DNA of 20,885 nt from a virus, in IMG/VR virus record IMGVR_UViG_3300037300_000255, positions 1-20,885 of that record, one strand, 5' to 3'. Shown in pieces: positions 465 through 17,926 of this stretch (positions within the stretch are counted from its first letter, which is position 1; each line of letters starts with the position of its first letter). The position numbers and the translations under genes are program-made. Below the pieces are notes generated by a model, which saw only the letters and a program-made list of their open reading frames with translations, was not told the origin of the DNA and did no database searches.

Positions 465-470
465 TATAAT
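465..470 (+). promoter_or_regulatory. -10 box placing transcription start at the ATG of 477
   Basis: TATAAT at 465-470 is followed by 6 nt and then ATG at 477. No TGn precedes it and no good -35 is seen 16-18 bp upstream. The spacing puts the expected transcription start on the A of the ATG, hence a leaderless mRNA. Confidence 0.55.
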
Positions 471-476
471 AGATAT

Positions 477-659
477 ATGACACGATATCACTTTTTCAAT
501 GCTATGTATCCTATGGAGGCTAAGAAGATATCAGAAGGTTACTCTACTATAGGTAAAGCTATATGGAGTACGTTTGCTACTATAACTATGTTAGATAAGT
601 TATTTGTATTTACCCCGAAAGAATTGATCCTGGATCCAGACGAAGTCTCTGGCGAATAG
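477..659 (+). CDS. Hypothetical 60-aa protein, leaderless
   Basis: A 60-residue protein beginning MTRYHFFNAMYPMEAKK with a hydrophobic central stretch (about residues 25-47, AIWSTFATITMLDKLFVF) and an acidic end (DPDEVSGE). The central stretch is too polar to call a membrane helix with confidence. No family recognised. The call rests on the consensus -10 box 6 nt before the ATG, the same layout as other genes here. A 7-bp imperfect hairpin spans the stop codon (647-665). An overlapping antisense frame (539-727) has no start signal. Confidence 0.55.
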   Translation: MTRYHFFNAMYPMEAKKISEGYSTIGKAIWSTFATITMLDKLFVFTPKELILDPDEVSGE

Positions 660-665
660 CCAGGG
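647..665 (+). terminator. Possible weak hairpin over the stop of the 60-aa gene
   Basis: CTCTGGC, loop gaata, GCCAGGG gives 7 pairs including one G-T wobble and contains the TAG stop. No T-run follows, so termination is only a possibility. Confidence 0.25.
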
Positions 666-1201
666 TATAAATAGATCACCCCCCTCCTCTCCTTTTGATC
701 CCATATCCCCCTAGTAGAAACATACATACATTTCTGATATGGTTTTGATATAAATCATTACGATAGGGGATATTATTTCCAGAAATTCATAGCTTTTATA
801 TATGTTTATATACTTTTATACAGGGATATATAGATAGATATCTATGCTCATATGAGGTTATCAGGGATAGGAGATACCTGGTAGGGTTAGATATGGAGAT
901 ATGTATTATACACCTATATGGTAGATATGTCAAGTAATGTAGGGGAAAAGTTATTACGTTTTCATAACAATGTGGCCCATTACCCATACACTATATCTAT
1001 ACATATCTATCCACTATCCAACTATCTATTCAGTAAGATATAAACACACTATCAACTATATGTCACATAGGTCTAATTAGCTATATATGGCTATATGGGA
1101 GGGTATAAAGTTCTCCTGATATCTCAGATAGGTAGTTATGGGAGAAAGGCTTCTAGAGCTTCTAAGACTTAATTCTATAAACTCTTATAGTATTTGATCA
1201 T
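660..1201. other. AT-rich stretch without a convincing gene
   Basis: About 540 nt rich in TATA, GATA and CTAT words, with a perfect 12-bp palindrome ATAGATATCTAT at 834-845 and a CTAT-rich run around 990-1030. Frames that stay open here (for example 796-987 on the minus strand) have low-complexity translations and no ribosome site or -10 box at a start. It separates rightward genes from the long leftward run. It could be an origin, a regulatory region or simple spacer; nothing in the sequence decides. Confidence 0.5.
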
Positions 1202-1348
1202 ATGTCTGATAACGTAGTTAACCAGAAAGCCTACTATAATAATATTAAGAATCACTTCATGTTCTTTCTACTAGGTATGTTTATACTAGGGATAATGTTT
1301 GTTCTATTTCTTGATACCGCTCAAGATCACAGATACCCTGGTACTTGA
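1202..1348 (+). CDS. Small single-pass membrane protein (48 aa)
   Basis: A 48-residue frame: polar, Asn-rich N-terminus (MSDNVVNQKAYYNNIKNH), a strongly hydrophobic helix at about residues 19-37 (FMFFLLGMFILGIMFVLFL), then a short polar tail. This is the layout of a one-pass phage membrane peptide. There is no Shine-Dalgarno site, and the nearest -10-like box (TATAGT, 1186-1191) is 10 nt from the ATG, so the start is less well supported than others. Its 3' end overlaps the convergent 72-aa gene by 68 nt, which is unusual and lowers confidence. Confidence 0.45.
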   Translation: MSDNVVNQKAYYNNIKNHFMFFLLGMFILGIMFVLFLDTAQDHRYPGT

Positions 1349-1499
1349 TACCGTGATATTTATCATAGGTAGCTTCTACTGATCTGATAGTACTATCCTT
1401 AGTCTTCCCATTGACGAATACAGTTACTTTATGATCTTCACAATGTATCTGTCCGCTAAAACCTGATAGGGTTTCCTCTATAGTTGTCTTATTCACCAT
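1281..1499 (-). CDS. Hypothetical 72-aa protein
   Basis: A 72-residue protein with alternating hydrophobic and polar residues suggesting a small beta-rich fold (GQIHCEDHKVTVFVNGKTKD). No family recognised. It starts inside the end of the 59-aa zinc-ribbon gene: ATG at 1499 or GTG at 1496, with AAGG just upstream. AAGG sits 3 nt from the ATG and 6 nt from the GTG, so the GTG may be the real start. It is co-transcribed from the leaderless promoter at 1675-1683. Confidence 0.6.
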   Translation of the reverse strand: MVNKTTIEETLSGFSGQIHCEDHKVTVFVNGKTKDSTIRSVEATYDKYHGIKYQGICDLERYQEIEQTLSLV

Positions 1500-1668
1500 T
1501 AGCCTTATCTCTAAAATGTTCTGGGGGATGTGTTTCTATTTCTATATCTTCCAAGATAGCTATTATCCTTATCTTATTGTTTATGTCTACTAATCGTAAT
1601 GATCCACATTTACAGGTGCTTGGAGCTACCAGCGGTAGCCTATCTTTGCACCATTTGCATAATACCAT
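1489..1668 (-). CDS. Small zinc-ribbon protein (59 aa)
   Basis: A 59-residue protein with two Cys pairs near the N-terminus, C4-x2-C7 and C19-x-C21, followed by a helical, Ile-rich segment (NNKIRIIAILEDIEIE). The Cys layout suggests a small zinc-binding knuckle, although the second pair has one spacer residue instead of the usual two. The ATG lies exactly 6 nt after an extended -10 box, so the mRNA should be leaderless. The stop overlaps the start of the 72-aa gene, making a two-gene operon. Function unknown; nucleic-acid or protein binding is the usual role of such ribbons. Confidence 0.65.
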   Translation of the reverse strand: MVLCKWCKDRLPLVAPSTCKCGSLRLVDINNKIRIIAILEDIEIETHPPEHFRDKANGE

Positions 1669-1674
1669 AGTTAT

Positions 1675-1683
1675 ATTATACCA
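1675..1683 (-). promoter_or_regulatory. Extended -10 promoter, leaderless (59-aa gene)
   Basis: On the minus strand TGG-TATAAT, then 6 nt (ATAACT), then ATG at 1668. The transcription start is predicted on the start codon. Confidence 0.7.
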
Positions 1684-1733
1684 GGTATCGGGAGGATATC
1701 AAGTCGGAAGACTTGGAGTGATCTCCTATTTAC

Positions 1734-4052: not shown

Positions 4053-4074
4053 ATTATAGCAAAAGTGCTATACT
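4053..4074. promoter_or_regulatory. Divergent palindromic extended -10 pair
   Basis: Minus strand: TGC-TATAAT (boxes at 4061-4053) then 6 nt to ATG 4046. Plus strand: TGC-TATACT (4066-4074) then 6 nt to ATG 4081. The two boxes form a perfect inverted repeat, TATAGCA-AAAG-TGCTATA (4055-4072). There is no room for separate -35 sites, so the two promoters must compete or share one regulator or polymerase. Confidence 0.7.
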
Positions 4075-4248: not shown

Positions 4249-4257
4249 TGGTAAAAT
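4229..4257 (+). promoter_or_regulatory. Consensus -35/-10 promoter with leaderless start at 4265
   Basis: TTGACA (4229-4234), a 17-nt spacer and TAAAAT (4252-4257), then 7 nt to ATG at 4265. The -35 lies inside the end of the 55-aa gene. It is one of two promoters in the window with a perfect TTGACA. Confidence 0.75.
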
Positions 4258-5179: not shown

Positions 5180-5188
5180 ATTATAACA
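5180..5188 (-). promoter_or_regulatory. Extended -10 promoter, leaderless (zinc ribbon)
   Basis: Minus-strand TGT-TATAAT, 7 nt, then ATG at 5172. A second TATAAT lies about 11 nt further upstream (5191-5196), so start-site selection may vary. Confidence 0.65.
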
Positions 5189-5276
5189 CGATTATAATGA
5201 GATATGCTCTCAATTCATCACTTTTACAAAAAATGTTTAATAAAACTTTAAGGCATTGATCACCAGGAACTGATGG

Positions 5277-5897: not shown

Positions 5898-5927
5898 ATT
5901 ATACCATGTCAAGTATTCTGTTATAAT
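5898..5927. promoter_or_regulatory. Divergent extended -10 pair (oxygenase/hydrolase)
   Basis: Minus strand TGG-TATAAT (5906-5898) with 6 nt to ATG 5891; plus strand TGT-TATAAT (5919-5927) with 6 nt to ATG 5934. The -10 hexamers face away from each other with 18 bp between, so each -35 zone falls on the other's -10. Both genes are predicted leaderless. Confidence 0.75.
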
Positions 5928-5933
5928 AAAGTC

Positions 5934-6617
5934 ATGGAATTAAAGAAAGAAATTATAACTTTATTCGAGGATGACTTCTGTAGAATAAGCATGATAGATG
6001 GAGATGGTGACATCGTAACCCTCTCTATCTCTAGCTCACCAAGGATAGGCGAAGACTTCTCAAGTGAAGAGTTCATTAAGACCTCAACCAAAGATGGTAA
6101 GGGTGTATTCTTAATAGACAAGACCAACTCTTTTGGCAACAGGCTGGATTGGGATGTCGTTATAGATACCCTATCTCCACACCTGGTAGATAAGGACGTG
6201 AGGGCTGTGGGGTTCTGCTTAGGAGGCTTCCTAGCTACCGTTCTTTCTAAGCACTTTAGGATCCATTCTGTAGTGGCGATAACCCCTCAGTACAGTGTGA
6301 TGCCAGAGTACATGCCTGAAGATAGCTTTATGTTAGGAATGTATACCAATAGCATTACGGAGTGGAAGATACCTAGTCTCGAAGGATACTTCCAGGAGGA
6401 TACAAACTACTATGTTTTTGCCAGCTGTGAGGCTGATGACAAGATCCAGATAGCTCACTTCCCCATCCAAGACAATGTGTTCATCTTTGACTTTGGAGAT
6501 GATTACGATCACGGTTTGCCTGGTCAGCTAGGAATAGACCTGGAAACACTTGTTGAGGCTTGCTTTGAGCATGAGCCATGGGTTGTAACTGATTTTATAG
6601 AAGACCATTACGCATAA
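5934..6617 (+). CDS. Alpha/beta-hydrolase-like protein with Cys at the nucleophile elbow
   Basis: 227 residues. GFCLGG at 93-98 has the shape of a nucleophile elbow (G-x-Nu-x-G) with C95 instead of Ser, as in dienelactone hydrolases (GFCxGG). D168/D169 and H193 (YDHGLPG) are candidate acid and base. The first 70 residues are acidic and less conserved-looking. The family cleaves esters, lactones or related bonds; the substrate here is unknown, and an inactive binding role is possible. It is leaderless from the divergent promoter and overlaps the convergent dehydrogenase by 10 nt. The sugar-enzyme neighbours suggest, but do not prove, a role in glycan chemistry. Confidence 0.65.
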   Translation: MELKKEIITLFEDDFCRISMIDGDGDIVTLSISSSPRIGEDFSSEEFIKTSTKDGKGVFLIDKTNSFGNRLDWDVVIDTLSPHLVDKDVRAVGFCLGGFLATVLSKHFRIHSVVAITPQYSVMPEYMPEDSFMLGMYTNSITEWKIPSLEGYFQEDTNYYVFASCEADDKIQIAHFPIQDNVFIFDFGDDYDHGLPGQLGIDLETLVEACFEHEPWVVTDFIEDHYA

Positions 6618-7708
6618 GAAACTATCTTAGACTCACTAATCATAGATAGGTGCAGCTCTTCATGCCTTACAGTCACAAGGACTACATCAAAGCTGTTAGA
6701 TGGCTTTACAGACTTAGTTGTTCCGTAAGTCTTAACTACTTCGTCATGCCACTTGACATCATACCCAAGGTGCTTCATTAGGTTATATATCTGACTACCT
6801 GAAGAGTTCCTGGTGTCATCAGTATTAGCCTTATATGACATACCTACAATTAAGATCTTCTTATCCTGTAGTCCGTTGAACTTCTTATTAAGATCATCTA
6901 CAATCTCATTAGGCATTGAGTCATTAATCTCTATGGCTGTTTCGAGAAGAGTAATTGGTACTCCAAGTTCCCTCATATGGTTAGACAAGAACTCAGGATC
7001 AACTGGGATGCAGTGGCCACCAGCACCAGCACTAGGATAGAATGCTTGAAATCCAAACTCCTTAGTACTTGCCAACTGAATGACTTCACTTGAATCTATC
7101 CCAGCAGCAAGGCAAGACCTAGCAAACTCATTGACAAAAGATACATTAAGAAGCCTGTAAGAATTTTCCAGAAGTTTTGCTGCCTCGGCAACTCTTACGT
7201 CGCTGGCGCTTACAACTTTCTTAATAAACTTAGTATAGAAAGCCATAGCTGCTTTTAAGGCTAAAGGCGTAGCTCCTGATACAACCTTAGTAGTATTACT
7301 AATGTTATACTTCTCAGAGCCTGGGTCAATTCGTTCTGGTGAATAGGCTACTAAGACTCCTGCTTTAGTTAGTGGTGGGAAGAAGATCTTTTCGGTTACC
7401 CCTATTCCTACCGTGGACTCTAGGATAGCTAGAGCCCCCTCTTTTGCTACAGAAGCTATCTCCTGCGCTGCTTTGGCTACGTAGTCTTCTCCAGATAATG
7501 GAGTAGCCACACATACGATAAAGACGTCAGCGTTCTTTGCATCATTGATGTCTGAGGTAACGGAGTACCCAAGGTCATCTGACATTATGGGTAGTAGAAC
7601 ACTTTTGCTCTTTTCTACACCTATAACACTAAAGCCTTTGACTTTTGACACACGGCTCGCCAGTGCTTGTCCAACGTAACCAAGCCCTATGATCGCAACT
7701 TCAGTCAA
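6608..7708 (-). CDS. Nucleotide-sugar dehydrogenase (UDP-glucose/UDP-ManNAc dehydrogenase family)
   Basis: 366 residues. Rossmann loop GLGYVGQ at 8-14, ESTVGIGVTEK at about 97-107, SPERIDPG at 123-130, K178/N182 in the central helix (AEAAKLLENSYR), and the catalytic C233 in GAGGHCIPVDP. These are the landmarks of NAD-dependent four-electron oxidation of a UDP-hexose or UDP-HexNAc to the uronic acid. GGHCIPVDP is the form found in WecC/UDP-ManNAc-type enzymes. Families usually run near 400-440 residues, so this one is compact. The TTG start has a purine-rich site (GAGGGATAGG). It is last in the operon ThyX-GroES-His-rich protein and probably supplies a uronic sugar to the cluster at 9362-17757. 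Confidence 0.88.
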   Translation of the reverse strand: MTEVAIIGLGYVGQALASRVSKVKGFSVIGVEKSKSVLLPIMSDDLGYSVTSDINDAKNADVFIVCVATPLSGEDYVAKAAQEIASVAKEGALAILESTVGIGVTEKIFFPPLTKAGVLVAYSPERIDPGSEKYNISNTTKVVSGATPLALKAAMAFYTKFIKKVVSASDVRVAEAAKLLENSYRLLNVSFVNEFARSCLAAGIDSSEVIQLASTKEFGFQAFYPSAGAGGHCIPVDPEFLSNHMRELGVPITLLETAIEINDSMPNEIVDDLNKKFNGLQDKKILIVGMSYKANTDDTRNSSGSQIYNLMKHLGYDVKWHDEVVKTYGTTKSVKPSNSFDVVLVTVRHEELHLSMISESKIVSYA

Positions 7709-7728
7709 CCTATCCCTCTTGATCTATC

Positions 7729-8442
7729 TTATTCATAAAGTGCTCCAATTGTTTCAGGAAATGCATCCCTGGTCAGGTCTAGAACAGCTTGGGCATACTT
7801 TTGGATTTCCCATTGAGCGTCGTTAGGCATTCTCTGGTCAAGGAATGTTAAAACTCCCTGCAGAGACACCGTCCAACGCCATCTAACGTACATACCATAA
7901 GCTGGAAGAAACAGTCGGGCAATCTCTGGAGCTACACCATCATTCATGGCATCGTGATACGCCTCTGTTCCGCTTACAACGGTCTCGCATAGACGATCGA
8001 AGTACTTTTGACCTAACTCAATGTCTAGGGGCTCACCAGAGCCCTGCTTACTATTCTCTGGCTTACTCCTCCACTCATTAGGTAGAGGAATATAGAACTT
8101 TTCTTCTTCTGTAATGTAACGCCTAGAGGACTCGTTCCAACCATTCTGGTCGTCAATATGACTAGAGGCTACTGCGTACTTCCACCATTGCCTAGCAACA
8201 AATAGTGGAGCATAGACCTCAAAGGTTAGTGCTGCGTGTCTAAACGGAGATGTGTGACCCTCACGCAATAAGAACTTAATTAGCCTAGCTTCTTTGTCTG
8301 ACCACTCTGCAGCTTCCTTGTCATAAGAAACTCTTGCTGCGTTTACCGTAGCCAGATCATCTCCTAGCACATCTACAAGACGCAAGTATCCCTCGTCTAA
8401 CACCTTTATCGGTTCTGGCATGGTTCTAATATATGTAGTCAT
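7729..8442 (-). CDS. thyX: Flavin-dependent thymidylate synthase ThyX
   Basis: 237 residues. LLREGHTSPFRHAALTFEV (about 58-76) and FVARQWWKY (81-89), then NESSRRY (103-109), match the ThyX fold: FAD-dependent methylation of dUMP using methylene-tetrahydrofolate and NADPH. The classical RHR-x7-S signature is altered: the residues aligned with RHR read K88-Y89-A90, and about eight extra residues (SHIDDQNG) precede NESS. A conserved enzyme of phage thymidine supply is still the best call. It lies 3 nt after GroES, with AGGA about 8 nt before its ATG. Confidence 0.88.
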   Translation of the reverse strand: MTTYIRTMPEPIKVLDEGYLRLVDVLGDDLATVNAARVSYDKEAAEWSDKEARLIKFLLREGHTSPFRHAALTFEVYAPLFVARQWWKYAVASSHIDDQNGWNESSRRYITEEEKFYIPLPNEWRSKPENSKQGSGEPLDIELGQKYFDRLCETVVSGTEAYHDAMNDGVAPEIARLFLPAYGMYVRWRWTVSLQGVLTFLDQRMPNDAQWEIQKYAQAVLDLTRDAFPETIGALYE

Positions 8443-8445
8443 TAA

Positions 8446-8733
8446 TTATCCTAACACCGCATAGATTTCTCTGTATGGGAGGATAGTGTATGTCTTAAGA
8501 TCATGCTCTACCTCGGTACCAGCAAACTTTGAGTAAGCTACTTTGTCTCCTACCTTCAGGTCAAGGTCAAGCCTTGAGCCATCGCTGAATACAGTACCTG
8601 GTCCAACTGCTATTACGATTCCCTCGGTTGGAGAATCCTTGCTTGTATTAGTTAAAATAAGTCCTGATGAAGAAGCTACTTCTGCTTCTACAATCGGCTC
8701 TACAATTACTTTATCCTCTAATGGTCTTAACAT
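8446..8733 (-). CDS. groES: GroES-like co-chaperonin
   Basis: 95 residues, matching the 10-kDa chaperonin from end to end: MLRPLEDKVIVEP at the N-terminus, a short mobile-loop region (EVASSSGLILTNTSKDS, about 18-34), EGIVIAVGPGTVFSDG, then VGDKVAYSKFAGTEVEHD and a C-terminal ILPYREIYAVLG. GroES caps GroEL during folding; no GroEL is seen here, so it must work with the host chaperonin, as T4 gp31 does for capsid folding. The loop resembles the usual GGIVL element only loosely (SGLIL), which may tune GroEL binding. The ATG immediately follows the stop of the His-rich gene. Confidence 0.9.
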   Translation of the reverse strand: MLRPLEDKVIVEPIVEAEVASSSGLILTNTSKDSPTEGIVIAVGPGTVFSDGSRLDLDLKVGDKVAYSKFAGTEVEHDLKTYTILPYREIYAVLG

Positions 8734-8988: not shown

Positions 8989-9029
8989 TAGTCTTAGTCT
9001 CTCGTTAAGGTTATTTGTGTAAGGTTTCT

Positions 9030-9312: not shown

Positions 9313-9361
9313 GTTGTTGTTTGCTATAAAGCTAAGGGTTTTTTATTACATTTTGGTAACA

Positions 9362-10993
9362 TTAAAACGTAATTATTGATTCGATCTCTGGACAATAAAG
9401 GTATGGGATCCCAGACTGAAGACATGTTCTTATAGCATCGTCCATTGTTTGAACCAGAGTGTCTCCAGCTAGATTAAACGATGTATTTAAGATCATAGGA
9501 ACACCCGTAAGGCTGTCAAACTCACTGATTAAAGCATGATAGTTCGGGTTCTGACTCTCATTAATGGTCTGTATCCTAGAAGTCCCGTCGTTGTGCATTA
9601 ACCCTGGGATAAGTGCTGCGGTCCCGTCCTGGGAGTCAACAGCATACAGCATATAGGGGCTAGACTTTAGTGTGTACATGTCAAACCACTGAGATGCCTT
9701 CTCTTCAAGCACAGTGCCTCCAAAAGGCCTAAAGCTCTCACGCTTCTTGATCATGTTGAGAACATCTCTTGCATCTCTGTCTCTTGGGTCATAAAGTATT
9801 GACCTATTGCCGAGGGCCCTTGGTCCAGCTTCTGCTTTGCCCTGATATATGGCGACCACGTTTCTCTCGGAAAGAAGCTTTGCCACGTCTTTGGGCGAAG
9901 CCTGTACGATGTCTCTTATGTCTCTCGAATCAAATCTGTGGTCGGCTGGGCCACTAAGGTATAGGGTCTCAAGCTCCCTTATATCGTGGTCTCCGCTAAG
10001 CGTGTGCCACCAATACTTTGCTGCCCCCAAGGCAGTTCCTGCGTCTGAGGAGTTAGGCTCTATGTAAAAGTTTGCATGAGGGAATAGCTTTAGCAGCTTG
10101 TAGTTATTCACACAGTTAAGGAAGTATCCTCCAGAGAGGCAAACGTTATCGTGTTTTGAGTTATCTAATGCTTCTCTAACTAAGTTAACTATGGGGATTA
10201 GAGAGTCGTTCTGAATCCTAAAAGCCAGGTCCTCGTTAGACATCCCATGTGTAAATATTCCTGGGTTAGCATCGTCTTCTATAAAAGCTCTTGGATCCTC
10301 CTTCTGGTCTACCCCGTATGCCGATAGACCCATGACCTTGCCTGCTTGGTGATAGTCTCCAAAGATATCAATACCAGCCTTACTAAACATCTTGCCAATG
10401 CTCATATCTGCGTCGTGGACCTTGACTTCATACTCAGTAGGCAATGGGCTAGCACATGGAGAAAGGTAGGTCTTGTCTGCCAGCTCTCCAGAAAGCTGCT
10501 GGTAGTTGAGTAGGGTATGCTGCTTGATTACTTTTTTTAGCTTTACGTCAAAGTTGTTATATTTTGCAGAGAAGATAGTCTCTGTCTCTCTATATAGGTA
10601 TTCATCATCGATAAAGGCTTGGCCAGCACCGTCTACAACCAAAACTGAGGCCTCGTCGAACCCTGAGTTGTAGAAGGCTGCTGCTGCGTGGGCTAAGTGG
10701 TGATCTCTCATGAAGTGAATCTCTGGCATGACATAGTCCTCAAAGTGATTGAGCTTGCCATGTGCTCCCATTAAGCTTGCAAAAAGGTCTTTTACTTTTA
10801 TCTCATACGGTGTTGCAGAGGTAAAGACGACGTGGGTAGGGTTAAACTTCATACCAGCTACGAAGCTATGAATTACCCCAGTGGTATGCTTCTCGTGAGT
10901 GACTCTCTCTTCTTCTTGGTAGAAGACAACCTTGCCCTTATCTAAAACACAGACACTTCCGTCATGTGATAAGTTCACGCCCATGATTATCAT
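9362..10993 (-). CDS. NodU/TobZ-family O-carbamoyltransferase
   Basis: 543 residues, full length for the family. The N-terminal ASKHA-like domain shows H10-D11-G12 and HHLAHAAAAF at 98-107 with VVDGAGQA at about 119-126. LSGGYFLNC (286-294), EAGPRALGNRSIL (388-400), MHNDGTSRIQ (466-475) and ILNTSFN (501-507) form the nucleotide-binding/YrdC-like and C-terminal parts. These enzymes transfer a carbamoyl group from carbamoyl phosphate, through an adenylate, to a hydroxyl of a sugar or antibiotic. The ATG overlaps the deacetylase stop (ATGA), so the two are translated together from the 11599-11607 promoter. An ATG 9 nt later is an alternative start. The acceptor is unknown. Confidence 0.92.
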   Translation of the reverse strand: MIIMGVNLSHDGSVCVLDKGKVVFYQEEERVTHEKHTTGVIHSFVAGMKFNPTHVVFTSATPYEIKVKDLFASLMGAHGKLNHFEDYVMPEIHFMRDHHLAHAAAAFYNSGFDEASVLVVDGAGQAFIDDEYLYRETETIFSAKYNNFDVKLKKVIKQHTLLNYQQLSGELADKTYLSPCASPLPTEYEVKVHDADMSIGKMFSKAGIDIFGDYHQAGKVMGLSAYGVDQKEDPRAFIEDDANPGIFTHGMSNEDLAFRIQNDSLIPIVNLVREALDNSKHDNVCLSGGYFLNCVNNYKLLKLFPHANFYIEPNSSDAGTALGAAKYWWHTLSGDHDIRELETLYLSGPADHRFDSRDIRDIVQASPKDVAKLLSERNVVAIYQGKAEAGPRALGNRSILYDPRDRDARDVLNMIKKRESFRPFGGTVLEEKASQWFDMYTLKSSPYMLYAVDSQDGTAALIPGLMHNDGTSRIQTINESQNPNYHALISEFDSLTGVPMILNTSFNLAGDTLVQTMDDAIRTCLQSGIPYLYCPEIESIITF

Positions 10994-11592
10994 TTGATTA
11001 CCTGGTTACCGACAGCGAACACTTCTGCATACTTGGTGTCAAGGTATGAGCCTCGCCATACGTCATGGTGCATGACTCCTCTTACCCATTTATTTGGTAT
11101 GTTGTCGTATGCCTTGACGGCATTGAGCTTGGACTTGTATGACCATGAACCAATGTCAATATATAGGTCTGGTGTAAAGTGCTTATATTTTAGGTTGTAT
11201 GGGTGAGCAGACATGTACCATAGGTCCATAGGTTGCTTCCTGGCTAAAATATTTCCTATTTCATGACATGCCTGGTGGTCCTGGTGCCAGTCTTCGTTCC
11301 AGTGCGTTATGATTAAGTCCACTGTAGAAAAGTCAACCATTACCTCTAACTCTTTGATTACATTTTTGTCTACTTTGACTGAGTTGGACATGGAAAATAT
11401 GATAGGATCTATCCCTAGATAACCTGATGCTCTATTTAGATACTCTAGGTGAGGAACCCCCCCTGCCATGACTATGCTAGTCACCTTATTACCATCTTCT
11501 ACAAATTTTGCAACTGTTCCTCCGCAGGACATCTCTAGGTCATCGGGGTGAGCAGAAAGGATAACTATATGTTTTTCTTTTAAAGTCTGCAT
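10990..11592 (-). CDS. PIG-L/LmbE-family deacetylase
   Basis: 200 residues. AHPDDLE at 14-20 supplies the zinc ligands H15 and D18 and the catalytic D17; the third zinc His is in HQDH at 103-106 (H106 most likely). The family removes acetyl groups from GlcNAc-linked compounds (GlcNAc-PI, mycothiol and bacillithiol precursors, LmbE-like sugars). The size fits a single-domain enzyme. It is leaderless: TGG-TATACT lies 6 nt before the ATG. Coupled to the carbamoyltransferase, it suggests a step that frees an amine on an N-acetyl sugar of the cluster's product. Confidence 0.9.
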   Translation of the reverse strand: MQTLKEKHIVILSAHPDDLEMSCGGTVAKFVEDGNKVTSIVMAGGVPHLEYLNRASGYLGIDPIIFSMSNSVKVDKNVIKELEVMVDFSTVDLIITHWNEDWHQDHQACHEIGNILARKQPMDLWYMSAHPYNLKYKHFTPDLYIDIGSWSYKSKLNAVKAYDNIPNKWVRGVMHHDVWRGSYLDTKYAEVFAVGNQVIK

Positions 11593-11598
11593 ATCTAA

Positions 11599-11607
11599 AG
11601 TATACCA
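11599..11607 (-). promoter_or_regulatory. Extended -10 promoter, leaderless (deacetylase operon)
   Basis: Minus strand TGG-TATACT, 6 nt, ATG at 11592. The TG follows directly after the TAG stop of the upstream glycosyltransferase (11610-11608). Confidence 0.75.
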
Positions 11608-12495
11608 CTAAAACTTATTTTTGTCTAGCAATGCCTTGGCACGTGTAAACTCAAAGAAAGATCTGTTTGCTGACCAGAAGTCGTCTGGAGTTCTTTCTGC
11701 GTTGGGGATTGCGTATGGCCCCGTATTATATATATAAGCCATCGTCATGTCTTCATCACTGTCGTCGATCTCTGGAACTGCCCCAAACTCCTTGGCCTTT
11801 ACCTGATCAATTGACGCAACATAGATTGAATCATCGTGGGTCATAAGGTCCTGATGGTATTGGTAAGTGTCCCAACCTGAAAGGTAAGCCCTATAACCAA
11901 GGTATGCCTGCTCCTGATTGTATTGAGACCTAGAGTCTAGCCCCACCTCTTTGATAAACCTACCGTCAAAGAATATCTGCCCTACCCTCATAAAGGAAAT
12001 CTTTTCTATCTCCTTTTCTGGTATGTACCTACCATTTACTGGTTGGGCAGCTACATTAAGAGGAAGCTTTGTGGAAGTCCTTTGCTCAATTCTGAACCTA
12101 GAGGACATAGCCTCTTTTCCGTATAGCCCTAAAGGAAACACTATAACTTTGTAGGTCTTAGTAGACTCCTGCAATTCTTTTATGACAGATACGAGTTTTG
12201 TGTCCCAACCTTGAGTAAATTGCATATGAGAGTCTATCATCAAGAAGTAATCTTCATCTTTAAAAAGTTGAGAGATCTCGTAACGCACTTTGACTATTCC
12301 AGGCCTAGTTCTTGGATTCCAGGAAAGGATCCTTAGCTGACTCTGGGGAAGTGAAGATAGGTCTGGTAATTCTTCGTACTGCAATCCCAATCCAAAAACC
12401 AAATCTTCGGGGTTGTCTGACCTCTGAAGAGCTCTCTCGATTGTTCTCACCAGAGTTGGGTCTTGGTATGAGGCAATTGATATAAAGATACTCAT
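11608..12495 (-). CDS. Glycosyltransferase, GlcNAc (Skp1-type) family
   Basis: 295 residues. SIFISIASYQDPTLVRTIERAL at the N-terminus and FLMIDSHMQFTQGWD at 84-98 are typical of the GlcNAc-transferase-like family (PF11397-type, GT-A fold). D88-S-H90 takes the place of the metal-binding DxD. It probably transfers a sugar from a nucleotide donor onto an acceptor in the cytoplasm; no signal or membrane segment is seen. The start overlaps the SDR stop (ATGA), so the two are co-translated. Donor and acceptor are unknown. Confidence 0.82.
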   Translation of the reverse strand: MSIFISIASYQDPTLVRTIERALQRSDNPEDLVFGLGLQYEELPDLSSLPQSQLRILSWNPRTRPGIVKVRYEISQLFKDEDYFLMIDSHMQFTQGWDTKLVSVIKELQESTKTYKVIVFPLGLYGKEAMSSRFRIEQRTSTKLPLNVAAQPVNGRYIPEKEIEKISFMRVGQIFFDGRFIKEVGLDSRSQYNQEQAYLGYRAYLSGWDTYQYHQDLMTHDDSIYVASIDQVKAKEFGAVPEIDDSDEDMTMAYIYNTGPYAIPNAERTPDDFWSANRSFFEFTRAKALLDKNKF

Positions 12496-13412
12496 AACAG
12501 GTCCCTGATAATATCACCGAGGCTGAACTCTGGGCTCCAGCCTAAAGCCTTAAGCTTGCTGATGTCTGGCACACGCCTGCTAATCTCTGTATATCCAGGG
12601 TACACCTCCTCATACTCCTTGTGCCTTACGTCTGAGTGGGAGTTCGACATCCTTATCACAGTTGAGGCAAGGTTGTTTATGGAGACCTCTGTTGGGTTTC
12701 CTACGTTATACACTTCCCCTATTTTACCCTTTAAGATAATTTCACATATTCCTCGGACCGTATCTGATACATGACAAAAAGACCTTGTCTGCGTTCCATC
12801 GCCATATACGTAAAGGCTATTATCGTTTTTGGCAGCATGAATAAACCTGGGCATAACCATCCCATACTCTCCAGACTGTCCTGGGCCAGCGACATTGAAT
12901 AGCCTGCCTATCTTAACTTTTAGTCCGTGTTCTTTTGCGTCTAGGAGTAGCAACCGCTCAGACATGGACTTGGACTCTGCGTATCCCCAGCGGTTATCTC
13001 CCGTGCCTCCCAGTATCCTTGTAGAGTCTTCCCTCAATGGGACGTCTGGGCAAAGACCATAGACTTCGGAAGTAGAGGAGAAGAACAGTCCTGCATTGTA
13101 CCTGAGGCATAGAAGAGAAACTATCTCTGTAGCCTTTAGGTTGTTCTGCATTGACCCATAGGGATTAAAGATACCCTGCTTCATACCTGCTAAAGCTGCG
13201 AGGTGAACTACGTAGTCCGCCCATTCAAAATGAGAAGAGACGTCATCCTCCAACAAGCTTTGACTAATAAGACTAACTCCTATAGGCCACTGAGAAGTGT
13301 CTACATTTTTCTTGTTATCTAAAGCTCTAACGCTATAGCCTAAGTTATGGAGCATTCTTACAGTATGCATACCGACAAACCCTGCAGCACCAGTTACCAA
13401 AATGTTTTTCAC
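12492..13412 (-). CDS. Extended SDR: NAD-dependent sugar epimerase/dehydratase
   Basis: 306 residues from a GTG start. T-G8-A-A-G11-F-V-G14 binds NAD; FFSSTSEVYG (110-119) gives the catalytic Ser/Thr, and Y144-x3-K148 (GYAESK) the active pair. RLFNVAGPGQ and YGDGTQTRSF are usual for nucleotide-sugar epimerases and decarboxylases (GalE, UXS or RmlB relatives). The frame is open to an ATG at 13421, but that ATG lies on the -10 box; TATAAT ends 7 nt before the GTG at 13412, so a leaderless GTG start is preferred. With the dehydrogenase at 6608 it could convert a UDP-sugar to a uronic, pentose or epimerised form; specificity is not readable. Confidence 0.87.
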   Translation of the reverse strand: MKNILVTGAAGFVGMHTVRMLHNLGYSVRALDNKKNVDTSQWPIGVSLISQSLLEDDVSSHFEWADYVVHLAALAGMKQGIFNPYGSMQNNLKATEIVSLLCLRYNAGLFFSSTSEVYGLCPDVPLREDSTRILGGTGDNRWGYAESKSMSERLLLLDAKEHGLKVKIGRLFNVAGPGQSGEYGMVMPRFIHAAKNDNSLYVYGDGTQTRSFCHVSDTVRGICEIILKGKIGEVYNVGNPTEVSINNLASTVIRMSNSHSDVRHKEYEEVYPGYTEISRRVPDISKLKALGWSPEFSLGDIIRDLL

Positions 13413-13419
13413 AATTACC

Positions 13420-13447
13420 ATTATACCTCAGAAGGTGATGATATACT
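13420..13447. promoter_or_regulatory. Divergent leaderless promoter pair (SDR/cupin)
   Basis: Minus strand TATAAT (13425-13420, no TGn) with 7 nt to GTG 13412. Plus strand TGA-TATACT (13439-13447) with 6 nt to ATG 13454. The hexamers are 16 bp apart. Confidence 0.65.
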
Positions 13448-13453
13448 AGACCT

Positions 13454-14017
13454 ATGGACATTTTTAGTGCAAAAGAAGAAAGCAAAATATTCGTAGATAG
13501 GGGGTTGGCAGAAGTCCTTCCCTCATGGTCAGATTTTGAATCCTTGTTTGATGCTGCTCAGGGAAAAGAATCGGTTAACTGGTCATCCTTTGCGACATTT
13601 AATGTAGACAATGCCGAGGCTCTGACGGAAGTCTTTGATGACCTCTTATCCATGGCAAACGAAAGGCACTCTGGAGATCTAATAGCTGTCTTGGCTATCA
13701 CGCACTTTGAGAACAGCGTTAACAATTCGATCCCAGCAGAAGCCGATAACTTCTACCAAAAGTTTACATCATCTAATCCACAGAAAAAGCCCAGAGACTT
13801 TGACCCAACCATGATGTCTGCGACAATTCACTCTGACCCTGTAGACGGAATGTTCTTCCAGTGTGTTGGAGAAACTCTGTGGACAGCCTATTACGGAGAG
13901 GTAGAAGAGTCTTGGACTATCAGGCCTGGTGACATGGTTTACATTCCTAGTGGGGTCGTTCATAGTGTTAAAAGTTTAATGCCCAGATGTTCCATATCTA
14001 TAGGTTTTAACGACTGA
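13454..14017 (+). CDS. Cupin / JmjC-like protein with HxD...H metal site
   Basis: 187 residues. The C-terminal half holds H126-x-D128 (TIHSDPVDG) and H170 in GDMVYIPSGVVHSV, a cupin metal triad of the kind used by Fe(II)/2-oxoglutarate JmjC and Cupin_4 hydroxylases and by some sugar isomerases. PGDMVYIP is the typical turn before the last His. The N-terminal half is acidic and helical. It may hydroxylate a protein or small molecule; binding only is also possible. It is leaderless and opens a three-gene rightward operon with an HNH protein and a 2OG oxygenase. Confidence 0.75.
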   Translation: MDIFSAKEESKIFVDRGLAEVLPSWSDFESLFDAAQGKESVNWSSFATFNVDNAEALTEVFDDLLSMANERHSGDLIAVLAITHFENSVNNSIPAEADNFYQKFTSSNPQKKPRDFDPTMMSATIHSDPVDGMFFQCVGETLWTAYYGEVEESWTIRPGDMVYIPSGVVHSVKSLMPRCSISIGFND

Positions 14018-14020
14018 CAA

Positions 14021-14029
14021 TGATATAAT
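14021..14029 (+). promoter_or_regulatory. Extended -10 promoter, near-leaderless (HNH gene)
   Basis: TGA-TATAAT at 14021-14029, 8 nt to ATG 14038. A 0-2 nt leader is expected. Confidence 0.6.
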
Positions 14030-14037
14030 TATAACAT

Positions 14038-14286
14038 ATGTCCATATTCTCAGAGTTTCAGGCCTACAAAGAGTCGGTTGGGTGCTTTGACTGTTTAGTT
14101 AAGTACCCCCATTACATCCTTGAGTTTGATCACAGGCCAGAGTTTAAAAAAATAGACATTGTCTACAGGGTATTGAAGAAGTTTGGACAGGAAGCAGCTT
14201 GGAATGAAGCAAAGAAGTGTGACGTTGTTTGTTCTAATTGTCACAAAGAAAGAACTTACGAGAGAGATATGAGACTAAAAAAATGA
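14038..14286 (+). CDS. HNH endonuclease-like protein
   Basis: 82 residues. C17-x2-C20 (GCFDC), F-D-H-R-P at about 40-44 and C-x2-C-H (CSNCHKERT) form the zinc-supported HNH core. Small proteins of this type are common in phages; roles include homing, packaging and restriction. It has its own promoter and a coupled ATGA overlap with the oxygenase behind it, so it may be either a free-standing mobile gene or a stable operon member. It sits between two metal-dependent oxygenase-type genes with which it has no obvious biochemical link. Confidence 0.78.
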   Translation: MSIFSEFQAYKESVGCFDCLVKYPHYILEFDHRPEFKKIDIVYRVLKKFGQEAAWNEAKKCDVVCSNCHKERTYERDMRLKK

Positions 14287-14855
14287 TTATTGTAGACAAA
14301 GACTTTGGGGACAAAGAGCTAAAAGATGAGCTTTCAGACGCAATCCTTGGTTGGGATCCTAAGTTTCAGTGGGTCTTTGCCCCTGCTAGCAACATGTCAG
14401 ACATGAATGGCCATAATGCAATGCTAGACGATATGGTTTATGAGCATCTCATGTTCGTTTCTCTCGTAGGTCCAGGACATCCTTACAGGAAAAAGATTGT
14501 AGAACTATTTAATTCTTTCATAATAAAGCATAAGCTTAAGTACACAGAGATAGCAAGAATAAAGATTAACATTGTACCAATGGCTGGTAAAGACAGTATT
14601 GGAAAATATCAGATGCCCCATGTCGATTTAAATGAAAAGCATAAGGTTTTCCTATACTATATAAATGACTCTGATGGTGATACTTACTTGTTTAATGAGA
14701 CTCTTGGAGATACCCCTCCAGAAAAGTTTACCCTTGATCAGAAGATTAGTCCTGAAGCTGGCAAGGGTGTAGTCTTTGATGGTAACATTTTCCATGCTCC
14801 TAGTGCGCCAACCGAGTCAGCGTTTAGAGCAGTTATTAATCTTGACTTTGTCTAA
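14283..14855 (+). CDS. 2-oxoglutarate/Fe(II) dioxygenase
   Basis: 190 residues. H113-x-D115 (MPHVDLN), H171 (NIFHAPS) and R182 (FRAVINLDF) are the iron and 2-oxoglutarate ligands in the order expected for the double-stranded beta-helix. VFLYYINDSDGDTYLFNE lies on the core strands. The frame could start earlier at 14238, but the ATG at 14283 overlaps the HNH stop (ATGA) and starts the recognisable protein. It is not close in sequence to the oxygenase at 5277, so it may act on a different substrate. It overlaps the convergent 93-aa gene by 20 nt. Confidence 0.82.
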   Translation: MIIVDKDFGDKELKDELSDAILGWDPKFQWVFAPASNMSDMNGHNAMLDDMVYEHLMFVSLVGPGHPYRKKIVELFNSFIIKHKLKYTEIARIKINIVPMAGKDSIGKYQMPHVDLNEKHKVFLYYINDSDGDTYLFNETLGDTPPEKFTLDQKISPEAGKGVVFDGNIFHAPSAPTESAFRAVINLDFV

Positions 14856-15117
14856 AGATTTCTGTCAAACTCTTTGATCGTGTAAAGTCTTTTCCCAATC
14901 CTGCAAACAGTGACTTGTCATCTTCATGGTCCTCGTTGGCCATCAATGATCCGTCGGGCATACGGTGATATCCCTCTGGGGCATTATCTTCGTCTCCGCT
15001 GTATGACTTCGTTGCAGGTACACAGTTTGGGACTTGCTTACCGTTTGCTCCTGGCTTCATACCTCGTTGGACGTATCCATCCCAGCATGGGGACTGCTTA
15101 TCTAAGTTTTCTGACAT
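14836..15117 (-). CDS. Phage protein with CWDGY...NCVP motif (93 aa)
   Basis: 93 residues: PCWDGYVQRGMKPGANGKQVPNCVP (about 10-34) then GYHRMPDGSLMANEDHEDD (48-66). Similar C-W-x-G-Y ... G-K-x-V-P-N-C-V-P stretches occur in phage proteins, often next to virion genes; that is from memory, and the role is not established. The two Cys could pair or bind metal. It is leaderless from a TGA-TATAAT box 6 nt before the ATG, and its 3' end overlaps the convergent oxygenase. Confidence 0.7.
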   Translation of the reverse strand: MSENLDKQSPCWDGYVQRGMKPGANGKQVPNCVPATKSYSGDEDNAPEGYHRMPDGSLMANEDHEDDKSLFAGLGKDFTRSKSLTEIFRQSQD

Positions 15118-15123
15118 GTATAT

Positions 15124-15132
15124 ATTATATCA
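15124..15132 (-). promoter_or_regulatory. Extended -10 promoter whose TGn is a stop codon
   Basis: Minus strand TGA-TATAAT, 6 nt, ATG at 15117. The TGA (15132-15130) is also the stop codon of the nucleotidyltransferase. Confidence 0.75.
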
Positions 15133-15813
15133 TGACTCGTTAAGAGTTTTGGTGTATATTTTTAAGGCTTCTGGAGTACCCAAGTCATGCATCCGATCTA
15201 CAAAGACTGGGGATATGCTTAACCCATCATTGAGGGCATACTGATATACGGGGGCAACGTAGTATTCCCCGTGGTAGCTGTCTCTAGCTGCAAACATTCT
15301 CTTTGCGTACCTTACGAAGTCACTACCTCTCTTCCAGTAATGGACTCCTGCTAGGGCATTATGACTAATCTCTTGTTTTTCTACAACTTTTACGATCCTA
15401 TCCCCCACCACATCAGCATATGACCATCGGGTTCCAGAGGATTTAAAAAGAAGTAATGCCCCATCGGTAGTGATGTCTTTTAATATTGAGGAGTCCCATT
15501 CAACTATCTGGTCAGCATTAAGGATTACTAGTGGCACGTCGCTGTCTATTAGATCTTCTGCTAACATGGCACTCGTGGCTGGCCCAGATGTCGTTGATTC
15601 TACCTCGATGATCGTAGTGGGCATTCCCCAGTCAACTAAGGATAATCTAAAACCTTTTCTGGAGACAAGAATCAGCTCCCCTTTTAGACCTAGGCTTTCT
15701 AGGGCCAGCTGATACATTGGCTTGCCATCGATTATGATTAAGGGCTTTGGAAGATTGTATTCACTATCAAAGAATCTAGATCCTTCTCCAGACATCAGTA
15801 ATAGGATGTTCAC
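15130..15813 (-). CDS. Sugar-phosphate nucleotidyltransferase
   Basis: 227 residues. G9-E-G-S-R-F (GxGxRF, here with Glu at the second place) and LPKPLIIIDGKPM with K23 form the nucleotide-binding signature of NTP-transferases (GlmU, RmlA or MobA relatives). LNADQ with D101 supplies a metal-binding Asp. It should join an NTP and a sugar-1-phosphate to give the activated donor. It lacks the C-terminal beta-helix of longer members. The GTG start overlaps the kinase stop (TAGTG), suggesting kinase then nucleotidyltransferase as consecutive steps. The sugar and base are not readable. Confidence 0.83.
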   Translation of the reverse strand: MNILLLMSGEGSRFFDSEYNLPKPLIIIDGKPMYQLALESLGLKGELILVSRKGFRLSLVDWGMPTTIIEVESTTSGPATSAMLAEDLIDSDVPLVILNADQIVEWDSSILKDITTDGALLLFKSSGTRWSYADVVGDRIVKVVEKQEISHNALAGVHYWKRGSDFVRYAKRMFAARDSYHGEYYVAPVYQYALNDGLSISPVFVDRMHDLGTPEALKIYTKTLNES

Positions 15814-16655
15814 TAATGACCTATCTCTGTAAGAATCTCCCCTGCCCTAGTCAGAAATTGATCTACATGAGAAGTATTTTCGTAATGAATAGGACACATA
15901 GAAAGAAACAAGGATGCTTCATACAGCCTAAGAAGATCATAGCAGATTTCTTTTTCTTCTAAGAAAGAAATAAAAATATCCTTAAGCTCTTCATCTATTG
16001 CAATATCCTTCCCATGAACTATAAAGTCGTAACCACCAAGAATACTTTGGCTTAGCTTTGCTAGATCGTAGTATTCGTCTAAGTGCATGCTCTCGACGCC
16101 TCTGGGGTCGATGAAGGTTGCGTCTTCAAGAATATTGGAGAAGCATAGGTCTCCGTGAGATAAGACAGTTCGGAAGGTTTTTCTTTCCTTCATGAATAAG
16201 CTTTCAAAAGCTTTTCTTATTCTTGCTACGTAGTCCTCGGTGAGGGTGTCATACTTCCCAGATGATAATATAGATAGTTCCTCTGACCTTGCCTTAGCTT
16301 TATTTACGATTAGGTCATGAGATTTAGAAAATAGCATTGGGAGCTCTATCTCTGTATAAGTCTGTGACTTGAACTCATCTATTCTTGGGAAAAGGCCTTG
16401 CACCATGTTATACGTCAGAGTGTCGTGGGCATAATGATGTCCAAAGTCGTTGCCTGGAATTAGGTTCATGATGTAACTACAGGAATCAAGACCTTCTTTA
16501 AAGTCTCTTCCTACTGCAAAGAAGATATGGTAGGTCTCTGGGATCTCTTGGTAGTAAGCATACTCAGATTTGAGCTTATCTACGTTGGTGGATGTTTTTG
16601 TTACTATAAAATCTTCTACCGAGATTTTTGTGAAGCTTCTAGTTATATATTCCAT
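15813..16655 (-). CDS. APH/ChoK-like small-molecule kinase
   Basis: 280 residues. SHGDLCFSNIL at 166-176 gives the Brenner-type catalytic D169 and N174, and FIDPRG with D183 the metal-binding motif, as in aminoglycoside, choline and sugar kinases of the APH family. The N-terminal lobe is divergent. ATG 16655 is chosen because TATACT ends 7 nt before it; the longer frame to 16673 would run across the -10 box. Next to the nucleotidyltransferase, phosphorylation of a sugar or amino alcohol for activation is likely. Confidence 0.78.
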   Translation of the reverse strand: MEYITRSFTKISVEDFIVTKTSTNVDKLKSEYAYYQEIPETYHIFFAVGRDFKEGLDSCSYIMNLIPGNDFGHHYAHDTLTYNMVQGLFPRIDEFKSQTYTEIELPMLFSKSHDLIVNKAKARSEELSILSSGKYDTLTEDYVARIRKAFESLFMKERKTFRTVLSHGDLCFSNILEDATFIDPRGVESMHLDEYYDLAKLSQSILGGYDFIVHGKDIAIDEELKDIFISFLEEKEICYDLLRLYEASLFLSMCPIHYENTSHVDQFLTRAGEILTEIGH

Positions 16656-16661
16656 AAGACA

Positions 16662-16667
16662 AGTATA
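16662..16667 (-). promoter_or_regulatory. -10 box, leaderless (kinase)
   Basis: Minus strand TATACT (16667-16662), 6 nt, ATG at 16655. Preceded by GTG instead of TGn; the -35 is weak (TTAGTT at 17 bp). Confidence 0.6.
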
Positions 16668-16686
16668 CACCACAAGAGTCCACGAA

Positions 16687-17757
16687 CTAACATTCTAGTG
16701 ACTTTCTTAAAAAAAGATTATTTTCTATTTTGTCTACAATTTCGCTACCGTGTCTTAGACTAGAAGGAATAGCTAGATAGTTCATCCCCATTGCGTAGGC
16801 CAAGGTGGAGTAGTGAGGGTGATAGTCAACCATTGGGGACCCATTATCTGAAGTTGCCAATGGGGTAGCTATCTCTAAGACTAAACCTCCCCTTTTCATG
16901 AACAAGGCATTCCACAAGCCTGCGCCTGTTACTCCTGCTATCACTTTTGCCGAGGCAAAGAACCTAACCTGATCCTCATAGGACTCAAACTCCTCTGCAT
17001 AAACAATGACAAACCCCAAGGACTTAAAATATTCTTCTAGCAGCTTCTCATTGTAAAGCCTTACATCGTCAAGGATGAAAGAGTTATCTTCGTGTGGACT
17101 ATTCTTGACACTCACATCTCTTGGTGTGGTCTTTGACCTGCTGACATAGATTTTCTCTGTGGGGTCTGCATGGTCAGTTACGAATGTAGATCTAAAAAGT
17201 TCTGAGGTTAACCTGAGTCCAAAGAACTTCTGCAAGAAACCTTTGACATCCCCATGAGGTGACCTGGAGGGGCTAGATATTACGAAGTTGTCTATTGATA
17301 CCCTGGTCTTCTCGCTTGCTGTAATGTAACTAACTCTATGACCTTGCAATACTAAGGCTTTTTCGAGAGAATCAAATAGTGAGTTATTCCTTAGCAATCC
17401 TTCTCTTAGATTATGAAACTTAGCCTTTTCTATTCCGTTATCAACGAAAACAATCTCTGAACTGGGGAACCAGGAGGCCATTCTGAGTAAATCCGAAAGG
17501 GTGTCTTCTATTATGTGGCTCACGGATGGTGCTATTACCGAAACTATCTTTACGTCTTGCCCCAAGAACGTATAGTCGTATGGCTCAAAAGAATCTTTCT
17601 TTACGTCACTGATAATCACTCCCTCAGTAGAGGATAAGTAAAAGAGCTTATTCATGTTAAAGGTTAGCTCTTTTTTCATGATATTCGGGGATACGTGATC
17701 TGGCCTAGGATCATTGTACTTTGGCTCATGATAAGGGGTTTGCCTGTGAAGTGTCAT
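16687..17757 (-). CDS. GT61-like (DUF563) glycosyltransferase
   Basis: 356 residues. The second half has KIYVSRSK (about 207-214), LYNEKLLEEYFKSLGFVIVYAEEFESYEDQVRFFASAKVIAGVTGAGLWNALF and LVLEIATP, the ordered landmarks of GT61: an S-R element, N-E, then a G-x-x-G-A-G-L-x-N loop and a terminal E-I. The family moves xylose, GlcNAc or related sugars onto glycans or proteins. The start at 17757 has only a weak GAAAGA site; M27 or M35 are alternatives. It is preceded by an unusual ~220-nt non-coding segment containing a structured RNA candidate. Confidence 0.8.
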   Translation of the reverse strand: MTLHRQTPYHEPKYNDPRPDHVSPNIMKKELTFNMNKLFYLSSTEGVIISDVKKDSFEPYDYTFLGQDVKIVSVIAPSVSHIIEDTLSDLLRMASWFPSSEIVFVDNGIEKAKFHNLREGLLRNNSLFDSLEKALVLQGHRVSYITASEKTRVSIDNFVISSPSRSPHGDVKGFLQKFFGLRLTSELFRSTFVTDHADPTEKIYVSRSKTTPRDVSVKNSPHEDNSFILDDVRLYNEKLLEEYFKSLGFVIVYAEEFESYEDQVRFFASAKVIAGVTGAGLWNALFMKRGGLVLEIATPLATSDNGSPMVDYHPHYSTLAYAMGMNYLAIPSSLRHGSEIVDKIENNLFLRKSLEC

Positions 17758-17808
17758 TACTCAATCTTTCTTAAGTTTTAGACTTACGTCTACCTCTTAG
17801 TCTAGCAG

Positions 17809-17814
17809 ATTATA
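17809..17814 (-). promoter_or_regulatory. Possible second -10 box before the GT61 gene
   Basis: Minus strand TATAAT (17814-17809), no TGn and no good -35. If used, the GT61 mRNA would have a leader of about 45 nt without the structured RNA. Confidence 0.35.
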
Positions 17815-17824
17815 GGATAGAAAT

Positions 17825-17911
17825 GTCCCCATACAGCAACCATGGCGTAACCCGATATAAAAATGGTAACTAGTCATCCTAAAGTGGCTAATCCTTGCCC
17901 TGTATGAGGAC
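17825..17911 (-). ncRNA. Candidate structured RNA or 5' leader, 12-bp closing stem
   Basis: On the minus strand GTCCTCATACAG (17911-17900) pairs with CTGTATGGGGAC (17836-17825): 12 pairs with one G-U. Inside, ACCAT/ATGGT (17867-17863, 17843-17839) can pair. The predicted transcription start from the extended -10 box (17926-17918) is exactly the first G of the stem. The segment carries no credible gene and is not a tRNA: the closing stem is too long and there is no T-loop. It could be a free small RNA or a regulatory leader for the GT61 gene 67 nt downstream. I could not assign it to a known RNA family. Confidence 0.5.
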
Positions 17912-17917
17912 TATTCT

Positions 17918-17926
17918 ATTATAGCA
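17918..17926 (-). promoter_or_regulatory. Extended -10 promoter of the structured RNA
   Basis: Minus strand TGC-TATAAT, 6 nt, G17911. It starts directly after the T-tract of the terminator for the holin operon. Confidence 0.65.

Follow-up and report, generated by a model that had tools for sequence, protein, structure and literature searches.

Can the transcripts of a phage begin so close to its genes that no leader remains for a ribosome-binding site? This question is raised by IMG/VR virus record IMGVR_UViG_3300037300_000255, whose complete sequence of 20,885 bases was analysed (hereafter the window). In the first-pass annotation, fourteen genes and one RNA were described as having a −10 box, mostly extended by TGn, that ends 6-8 nucleotides (nt) before the start, an arrangement expected to give leaderless mRNAs. 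Every one of the fourteen genic boxes, as well as the RNA box, is found at the position claimed. A −10-like box stands 5-9 nt ahead of the start codon at 14/14 genic sites; the gap is 6 nt at ten of them, 7 nt at three and 8 nt at one, and it is 6 nt at the RNA. This placement is real and well above chance. Its best explanation, and in our judgement a very likely one, is that host sigma-A-type promoters give leaderless mRNAs.

Placement of the box compared with chance

The pattern TGNTATAAT occurs nine times in the window, while the reversed pattern does not occur at all. ATG or GTG follows at 6-8 nt behind 10/13 TGnTATAMT boxes of the window (M, A or C), in all ten cases as ATG, whereas 200 dinucleotide shuffles average 0.27 and never exceed 3. 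For plain TATAMT the count is 17/42, and the shuffles gave a mean of 3.5 and a maximum of 10. The looser motif TANNNT was also tried and was rejected, as no excess was observed in the window (62 ATG, about 60 expected).

The enrichment had been predicted to extend to the rest of the genome. Megablast of the window against phage records returned no match; a contig of 111,267 bases, G001, matches the window at 96-97% across two stretches, and the 89 kb of this 96%-identical relative lying outside the window were used as a held-out test set. The prediction was borne out there: 7/24 TGnTATAMT boxes precede an ATG in this way (shuffle mean for ATG or GTG 0.68, maximum 3), as do 23/138 plain TATAMT boxes (mean 9.7, maximum 19). 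Among 105 held-out genes there are 15 whose start is preceded at 5-9 nt by TATAMT or TAAAAT, ten of these with TGn; they include the 1178-codon open reading frame (ORF) at 60608 and the head protease gene at 66192, the latter without TGn. The pattern thus spans the genome and is less dense outside the window.

A wider set of relatives was obtained with the head protease as query, to which at least 596 stretches of viral contigs proved related. Of these, the 80 best loci were retained, and 75 of the 80 were used (L032-L106; 59-73% identity), L027-L031 being excluded for their 99-100% identity to G001. As controls, the first 120 kb of phages T4, HTVC008M, Wakanda, Annadreamy and Weasels2 and 130 kb of NootNoot were read. 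When TGnTATAMT was required to be followed at 5-9 nt by an ATG that opens a frame of 40 or more codons, the counts were 10/13 in the window (0.1 expected from other offsets), 9/24 in held-out G001 (1.6 expected) and 114/332 in the 75 related loci (22.9 expected). The corresponding values were 0/35 in T4 (1.4 expected), 2/37 in HTVC008M (0.8), 1/10 in NootNoot (0.8), 2/6 in Annadreamy (0.4), 2/10 in Wakanda (0.5) and 6/15 in Weasels2 (0.8). Comparison of TATAMT-N5-8-ATG with its reversed form gave a clear excess in G001 (34 to 10), in the related contig G002 (29 to 3), in NootNoot (14 to 2) and in Annadreamy (16 to 6), but no clear excess in Wakanda (6 to 4), Weasels2 (15 to 18), T4 (27 to 21), HTVC008M (30 to 42) or S-SM2 (19 to 17).

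To express the arrangement as a share of genes, we counted the called genes in which a box precedes a candidate start by 5-9 nt. There are 12/39 such genes in the window, 29/143 in G001, 16/147 in G008, 22/151 in G007 and 18/146 in G005, compared with 3/190 in NootNoot, 10/183 in Annadreamy, 6/182 in Wakanda, 10/186 in Weasels2, 3/177 in T4 and 3/131 in HTVC008M. The share is therefore 11-31% in the window and its clade, 2-5% in the four Streptomyces and Rhodococcus phages, and 2% in T4 and the SAR11 phage; most called genes have no box at the near position. The gene caller used for these shares is crude: its 12 box genes of the window are 11 of the fourteen listed earlier (1668, 4046 and 5172 were missed) plus the one at 19120. 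Since several candidate starts per gene were tried for a box, the hits are slightly raised, and displaced offsets served as the control. Three sets of such offsets gave 1, 0 and 2 of the 39 window genes, against 12 at the true position.

A Shine-Dalgarno sequence is rare in box genes of the contigs and common in the others: 3/29 versus 52/114 in G001, 0/16 versus 53/131 in G008, 1/22 versus 77/129 in G007 and 1/18 versus 64/128 in G005. G001 also has 17 TGnTATAMT boxes without an ATG at 5-9 nt. One belongs to the RNA, and behind several others, for example those at 1585, 68783 and 71892, come a Shine-Dalgarno sequence and an ATG. The extended −10 is thus a general promoter of the phage and serves leaderless and leadered genes alike. 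Of the uniform design that had been proposed, the dense placement stands, but it is not the sole design, the TGnTATAAT core being found ahead of leadered G001 genes as well.

Conservation of the spacing in relatives

Three scans with window proteins (5891 and 16655 among the fourteen) gave only contigs at 97-100% identity, and a scan with the carbamoyltransferase gave contigs at 96-100%. Because the orthologues found in these scans were all near-identical, deep conservation was examined on the structural genes of G001. At the four box genes several candidate starts were again tried, which slightly raises the hits; only distinct 45-base upstream regions were counted (e.g. 33 from 42 loci), and orthologue matches that begin past query residue 8 (module-gene survey) or 15 (distinct-region survey) were left uncounted.

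A box 5-10 nt from the start is kept in 48/49 distinct regions of gene 64163, 46 times at 7 nt and 47 times with TGn, when upstream starts are searched too; with fixed starts the survey gave 44/56, and the 12 misses look like wrong starts. In gene 72677 it is kept in 34/37 (31 at 6 nt, 33 with TGn); TACAAT stands in its place in two of the remaining three. The head protease gene (66192) has the box in 56/57, mostly at 8-10 nt (9 nt in 32 and 10 nt in 12 of the 56) and with TGn in only 2/56, and gene 60608 in 24/33, with TGn in 24/24 and a gap of 9 nt in 14/24. In place of TGn, the head-protease promoters of the clade have AAAAAGG about 3 nt before TATAAT. The pattern AAAAAGG-N1-4-TATAAT occurs one to three times per contig in 6/6 clade contigs searched and not in NootNoot; such promoters possibly form a second promoter class.

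The near box is rare in the other genes of the module: it was seen in 0/47 portal, 0/22 capsid and 1/38 tape measure genes, and in 1/62 at 69313 and 2/47 at 71329. For the capsid gene, 31/53 loci had no start codon within the search range. Gene 71958 has the near box in 0/47 and a Shine-Dalgarno sequence in 44, and gene 68820, with only six usable loci, has no box and five Shine-Dalgarno sequences. In 8/43 relatives of gene 73433 a near box of the leaderless type, with TGn, was found. In G001 itself, genes 68820, 71958 and 73433 have an extended −10 at a greater distance upstream and behind it a Shine-Dalgarno or purine-rich string, and are for this reason read as leadered.

That initiation is leaderless or leadered according to how far away the box lies is best supported by gene 60608. 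Where its box lies 6-9 nt from the ATG, a Shine-Dalgarno sequence is present in 0/24, and where the identical extended −10 lies at 14-16 nt, a Shine-Dalgarno-like string is present in 9/9 (Fisher p 2.6e-8, with relatedness ignored). Since there is hardly space for such a string behind a near box anyway, the telling half is that each displaced box brings one. On a tree of 42 proteins, six changes of state were placed, at least four of them on supported branches, and in 4/4 supported independent pairs the Shine-Dalgarno sequence shifts with the box. With at least four switches between leaderless and leadered forms, the 60608 orthologues offer naturally paired cases in which the cost or benefit of leaderless initiation could be tested.

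Comparison with known systems

Many Actinobacteria have leaderless genes at TA-like boxes (PMC3160421), and in mycobacteria a 5'-end ATG or GTG was measured to be necessary and sufficient for leaderless translation (Shell et al. 2015, PMC4633059). These reports agree with the statement of the first-pass annotation that leaderless genes are common in Actinobacteria. The TA-led genes of Zheng et al. (2011, PMC3160421) resemble ours in a −10-like signal that lies some 12 bp ahead of the start and in having no Shine-Dalgarno sequence; they differ in that the high-GC consensus there is TANNNT, whereas here the signal is carried by TATAMT, mostly with TGn. TATAAT-like signals in medium-GC groups were noted by the same authors. 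Mycobacterial leaderless transcripts (PMC4633059) have ATG or GTG at +1, as is expected here, and no leader, but there both the 5' ends and the positions of ribosomes come from measurement, while ours are deduced.

Among phages, the Cluster O mycobacteriophages, e.g. Corndog, have PL1, PR2 and PL2 predicted or drawn as leaderless SigA promoters (PMC4351075), and a leaderless promoter was predicted for gene 90 of Adephagia (PMC11373665). In Cluster O, too, promoters including one divergent pair have their predicted start on the first codon; however, three are named per genome there, compared with 14 in 20.9 kb here, traced over 75 related loci. The Streptomyces phages of Stanwilliamsviridae share related portal, head protease and WhiB proteins, Rhodococcus phage Weasels2 shares a related WhiB, and both show a small TATAMT excess at 6 nt, although their shares of called genes are lower, as given above. 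In the literature on leaderless genes and promoters in phages and Actinobacteria, of which most subscription papers and all of bioRxiv lie outside our scope, no title or abstract opening among the papers listed reports a phage clade so built. The present loci allow a dense series of probably leaderless phage genes to be compared within a large clade, seen here in viral contigs only.

Reader of the promoters and rival explanations

In the explanation we prefer, the promoters would be of the housekeeping sigma-A/sigma-70 type, with the extended −10 TGnTATAMT as the main contact and mostly without a good −35. Host RNA polymerase would begin about 6-7 nt past the box, on or beside the first base of the start codon, and ribosomes would initiate at the 5'-terminal AUG or GUG without a Shine-Dalgarno site. 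Genes that head a transcript would use the near-box arrangement, and the remaining genes would be translated from leadered mRNA. We infer the polymerase, the exact +1 and the 5'-AUG initiation from the box, its spacing, enrichment and conservation, and from the Shine-Dalgarno sequence observed at the displaced box. WhiB is present in 7/7 contigs, and the host is for this reason probably an actinobacterium. The WhiB of the window resembles that of Rhodococcus and Streptomyces phages, and for portal and head protease the listed matches in Streptomyces phages have 41-48% identity, three of these phages being Stanwilliamsviridae according to their records. A host genome was sought by an exact scan with the G001 tRNA-Thr, which found none, and by a WhiB scan, which found no relative. 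Sigma70 region 2 was found in 0 of 8 records searched and region 4 in 0 of 7, although the contigs may be incomplete; host sigma-A is therefore the likely reader.

Several observations weigh against this explanation. The sign test on the four 60608 pairs gives p = 0.125, the lowest value possible with four pairs. At the head protease gene and gene 60608 the gap is often 8-10 nt, so that a 1-4 nt leader and no leader at all are equally likely there. Part of the counts in the clade genomes is background, since displaced offsets gave 3-4 genes in G001, 5-6 in G008, 4-11 in G007 and 3-4 in G005. The rarity of Shine-Dalgarno sequences in box genes is partly built in, because a box 5-9 nt from the ATG leaves little room, and in the window itself no contrast is seen (2/12 box genes, 5/27 others). 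Between the window and G001, 0/90 box bases are changed, compared with 21/764 nearby, a difference that is not significant, and for four further leaderless genes of the held-out set the 75 loci gave no match that could be used. As for the −35, ten of the fourteen window promoters have at most 4/6 TTGACA matches at spacer 15-19, two have 5/6 and two are perfect; matches of 5-6/6 are found at 4/14 promoters versus 3/47 other TAWAMT boxes of the window (p 0.04). The −35 thus probably contributes at some window promoters, and its absence would hold for most, not all.

A simple possibility is that the boxes are ordinary −10s of leadered transcripts, or chance TATA-like strings near ORF starts in AT-rich spacers. 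The same core does occur ahead of leadered genes with a Shine-Dalgarno sequence elsewhere in G001, and displaced offsets yield 3-11 genes per clade genome. Yet the distance peak at 6-7 nt, the shuffles, the displaced offsets in the window and the conserved spacing all speak against it, and a transcription start 6-7 nt past the box falls on the start codon; we regard this possibility as very improbable. Alternatively, the boxes might form a dedicated promoter class read by a polymerase or sigma factor of the phage. A sigma-70 factor is encoded by E7 and F5, two cultured phages of Nanopelagicales (PMC10202952), and AAAAAGG replaces TGn at the head protease; however, given the negative sigma searches above and a box that is the plain sigma-70 consensus, we hold such a reader to be quite improbable. 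A search for a single-subunit polymerase gave no signal in any control genome and is uninformative on this point.

It remains to be asked whether host sigma-A-type promoters of this kind are a strategy of the phage, as had been proposed. The placement, its extent over the genome, its conservation and the leaderless reading are upheld; that it is peculiar to this phage is not, because related viral contigs share the placement and Streptomyces and Rhodococcus phages show it in weaker form. Such placement is a habit of actinophages, with more boxes in this clade, and what is seen is dense, clade-wide use of a known mechanism, not a new mechanism. A phage-specific strategy is unneeded, because leaderless genes at TA-like boxes are already established in Actinobacteria. 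It is fairly probable that the phage merely obeys the rules of a low-GC actinobacterial host with an equal leaderless share and the same extended −10, so that no part of the arrangement would be the phage's own. This is compatible with the preferred explanation and bears on the wording "strategy of this phage". WhiB in 7/7 contigs, the negative searches for a sigma factor and the 6/15 boxes of Weasels2 placed alike, which shows that the habit is not limited to the clade, are in its favour, while the low shares in the Streptomyces and Rhodococcus phages with related proteins argue against it, though their hosts differ. A stronger proposal, taken as one joint claim, is that the clade favours leaderless starts beyond the habit of the host as a takeover device, that mRNAs with a 5'-terminal AUG, startable by 70S ribosomes, would still be translated where initiation that depends on a leader is limiting, and that one and the same gene changes from the leaderless to the leadered form, or back, as expression is readjusted in different lineages. 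As a whole we regard it as unlikely.

Promoters of the window

TGn had been claimed at ten of the fourteen genes and TTGACA at a single site. The presence of the former and the rarity of the latter are confirmed, but the counts are eleven (477, 13412 and 16655 being without TGn) plus the RNA, and two (4046 and 4265, both with a 17-nt spacer). A TTGACA at 5891 was rejected as −35, lying just 3 nt from the box.

The first promoter is TATAAT without TGn at 465-470 (plus strand), 6 nt before ATG 477. TGGTATAAT at 1675-1683 (minus) lies 6 nt before ATG 1668 of a 59-aa ORF, with TTGATA at spacer 16. TGCTATAAT at 4053-4061 (minus), 6 nt before ATG 4046 and with TTGACA at spacer 17, forms a divergent pair with TGCTATACT at 4066-4074 (plus), 6 nt before ATG 4081. 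It is followed by TGGTAAAAT at 4249-4257 (plus), 7 nt before ATG 4265, with TTGACA at spacer 17, and by TGTTATAAT at 5180-5188 (minus), 7 nt before ATG 5172. A second divergent pair consists of TGGTATAAT at 5898-5906 (minus), 6 nt before ATG 5891, and TGTTATAAT at 5919-5927 (plus), 6 nt before ATG 5934; the 60 bases upstream of 5934 are identical in G001, while the aligned stretch including the gene is only 82% identical. TGGTATACT at 11599-11607 (minus), with TAGACA at spacer 17, lies 6 nt before ATG 11592 of a PIG-L deacetylase family gene. The third pair is TATAAT without TGn at 13420-13425 (minus), 7 nt before GTG 13412 of a gene of the NAD-dependent epimerase family, and TGATATACT at 13439-13447 (plus), 6 nt before ATG 13454. 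TGATATAAT is found both at 14021-14029 (plus), 8 nt before ATG 14038 of an 82-aa ORF, and at 15124-15132 (minus), 6 nt before ATG 15117, and TATACT with its TG one base out of place at 16662-16667 (minus), 6 nt before ATG 16655. In the three divergent pairs (4046/4081, 5891/5934, 13412/13454) the start codons are 35-43 nt apart, and therefore one short spacer holds both promoters.

The corrections of start codons proposed earlier are consistent with the placement of the boxes; at 4081, the longer start at 4075 directly abuts the box. The small ORFs at 1668 and 14038 look coding, to judge from substitutions against G001, which fall at third codon positions in 9/11 cases for 1668 (with 9 gapped bases besides) and in 28/34 for 14038. 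The arrangement is thus of practical use in fixing start codons and in pointing out short genes missed by a coding-potential caller.

Two sites were absent from the earlier list or found by eye. At 19120 (minus), TATACT lies 6 nt before an in-frame ATG within ORF 18890-19147 and is kept in G001 and G002; this is an additional leaderless candidate, not listed before. At 5193-5251 (plus), divergent from 5172, TATAAT lies 5 nt before the ATG of a 15-codon ORF noticed by eye. Box and ATG are kept in G001 and G002, and the site is possibly a leaderless small peptide, or else chance.

Predicted structured RNA and surface-modification genes

A structured RNA of 88 nt is predicted at 17824-17911 (minus), with a 12-bp closing stem and a minimum free energy of −31.2 kcal/mol (fold without shuffle control). 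It has its own extended −10, TGCTATAAT at 17918-17926 (minus), 6 nt before the predicted RNA start at 17911. The RNA has no Rfam match and, within the loci compared, occurs only in near-identical contigs at 98-100%. The region 6608-17757 carries genes of sugar and surface modification, encoding UDP-glucose/GDP-mannose dehydrogenase, carbamoyltransferase, PIG-L deacetylase, epimerase, nucleotidyltransferase, and GlcNAc and GT61 glycosyltransferases, as well as ThyX. Matches of the carbamoyltransferase, 15 listed of 141 records, are mostly from Synechococcus phages, at 36-39% identity.

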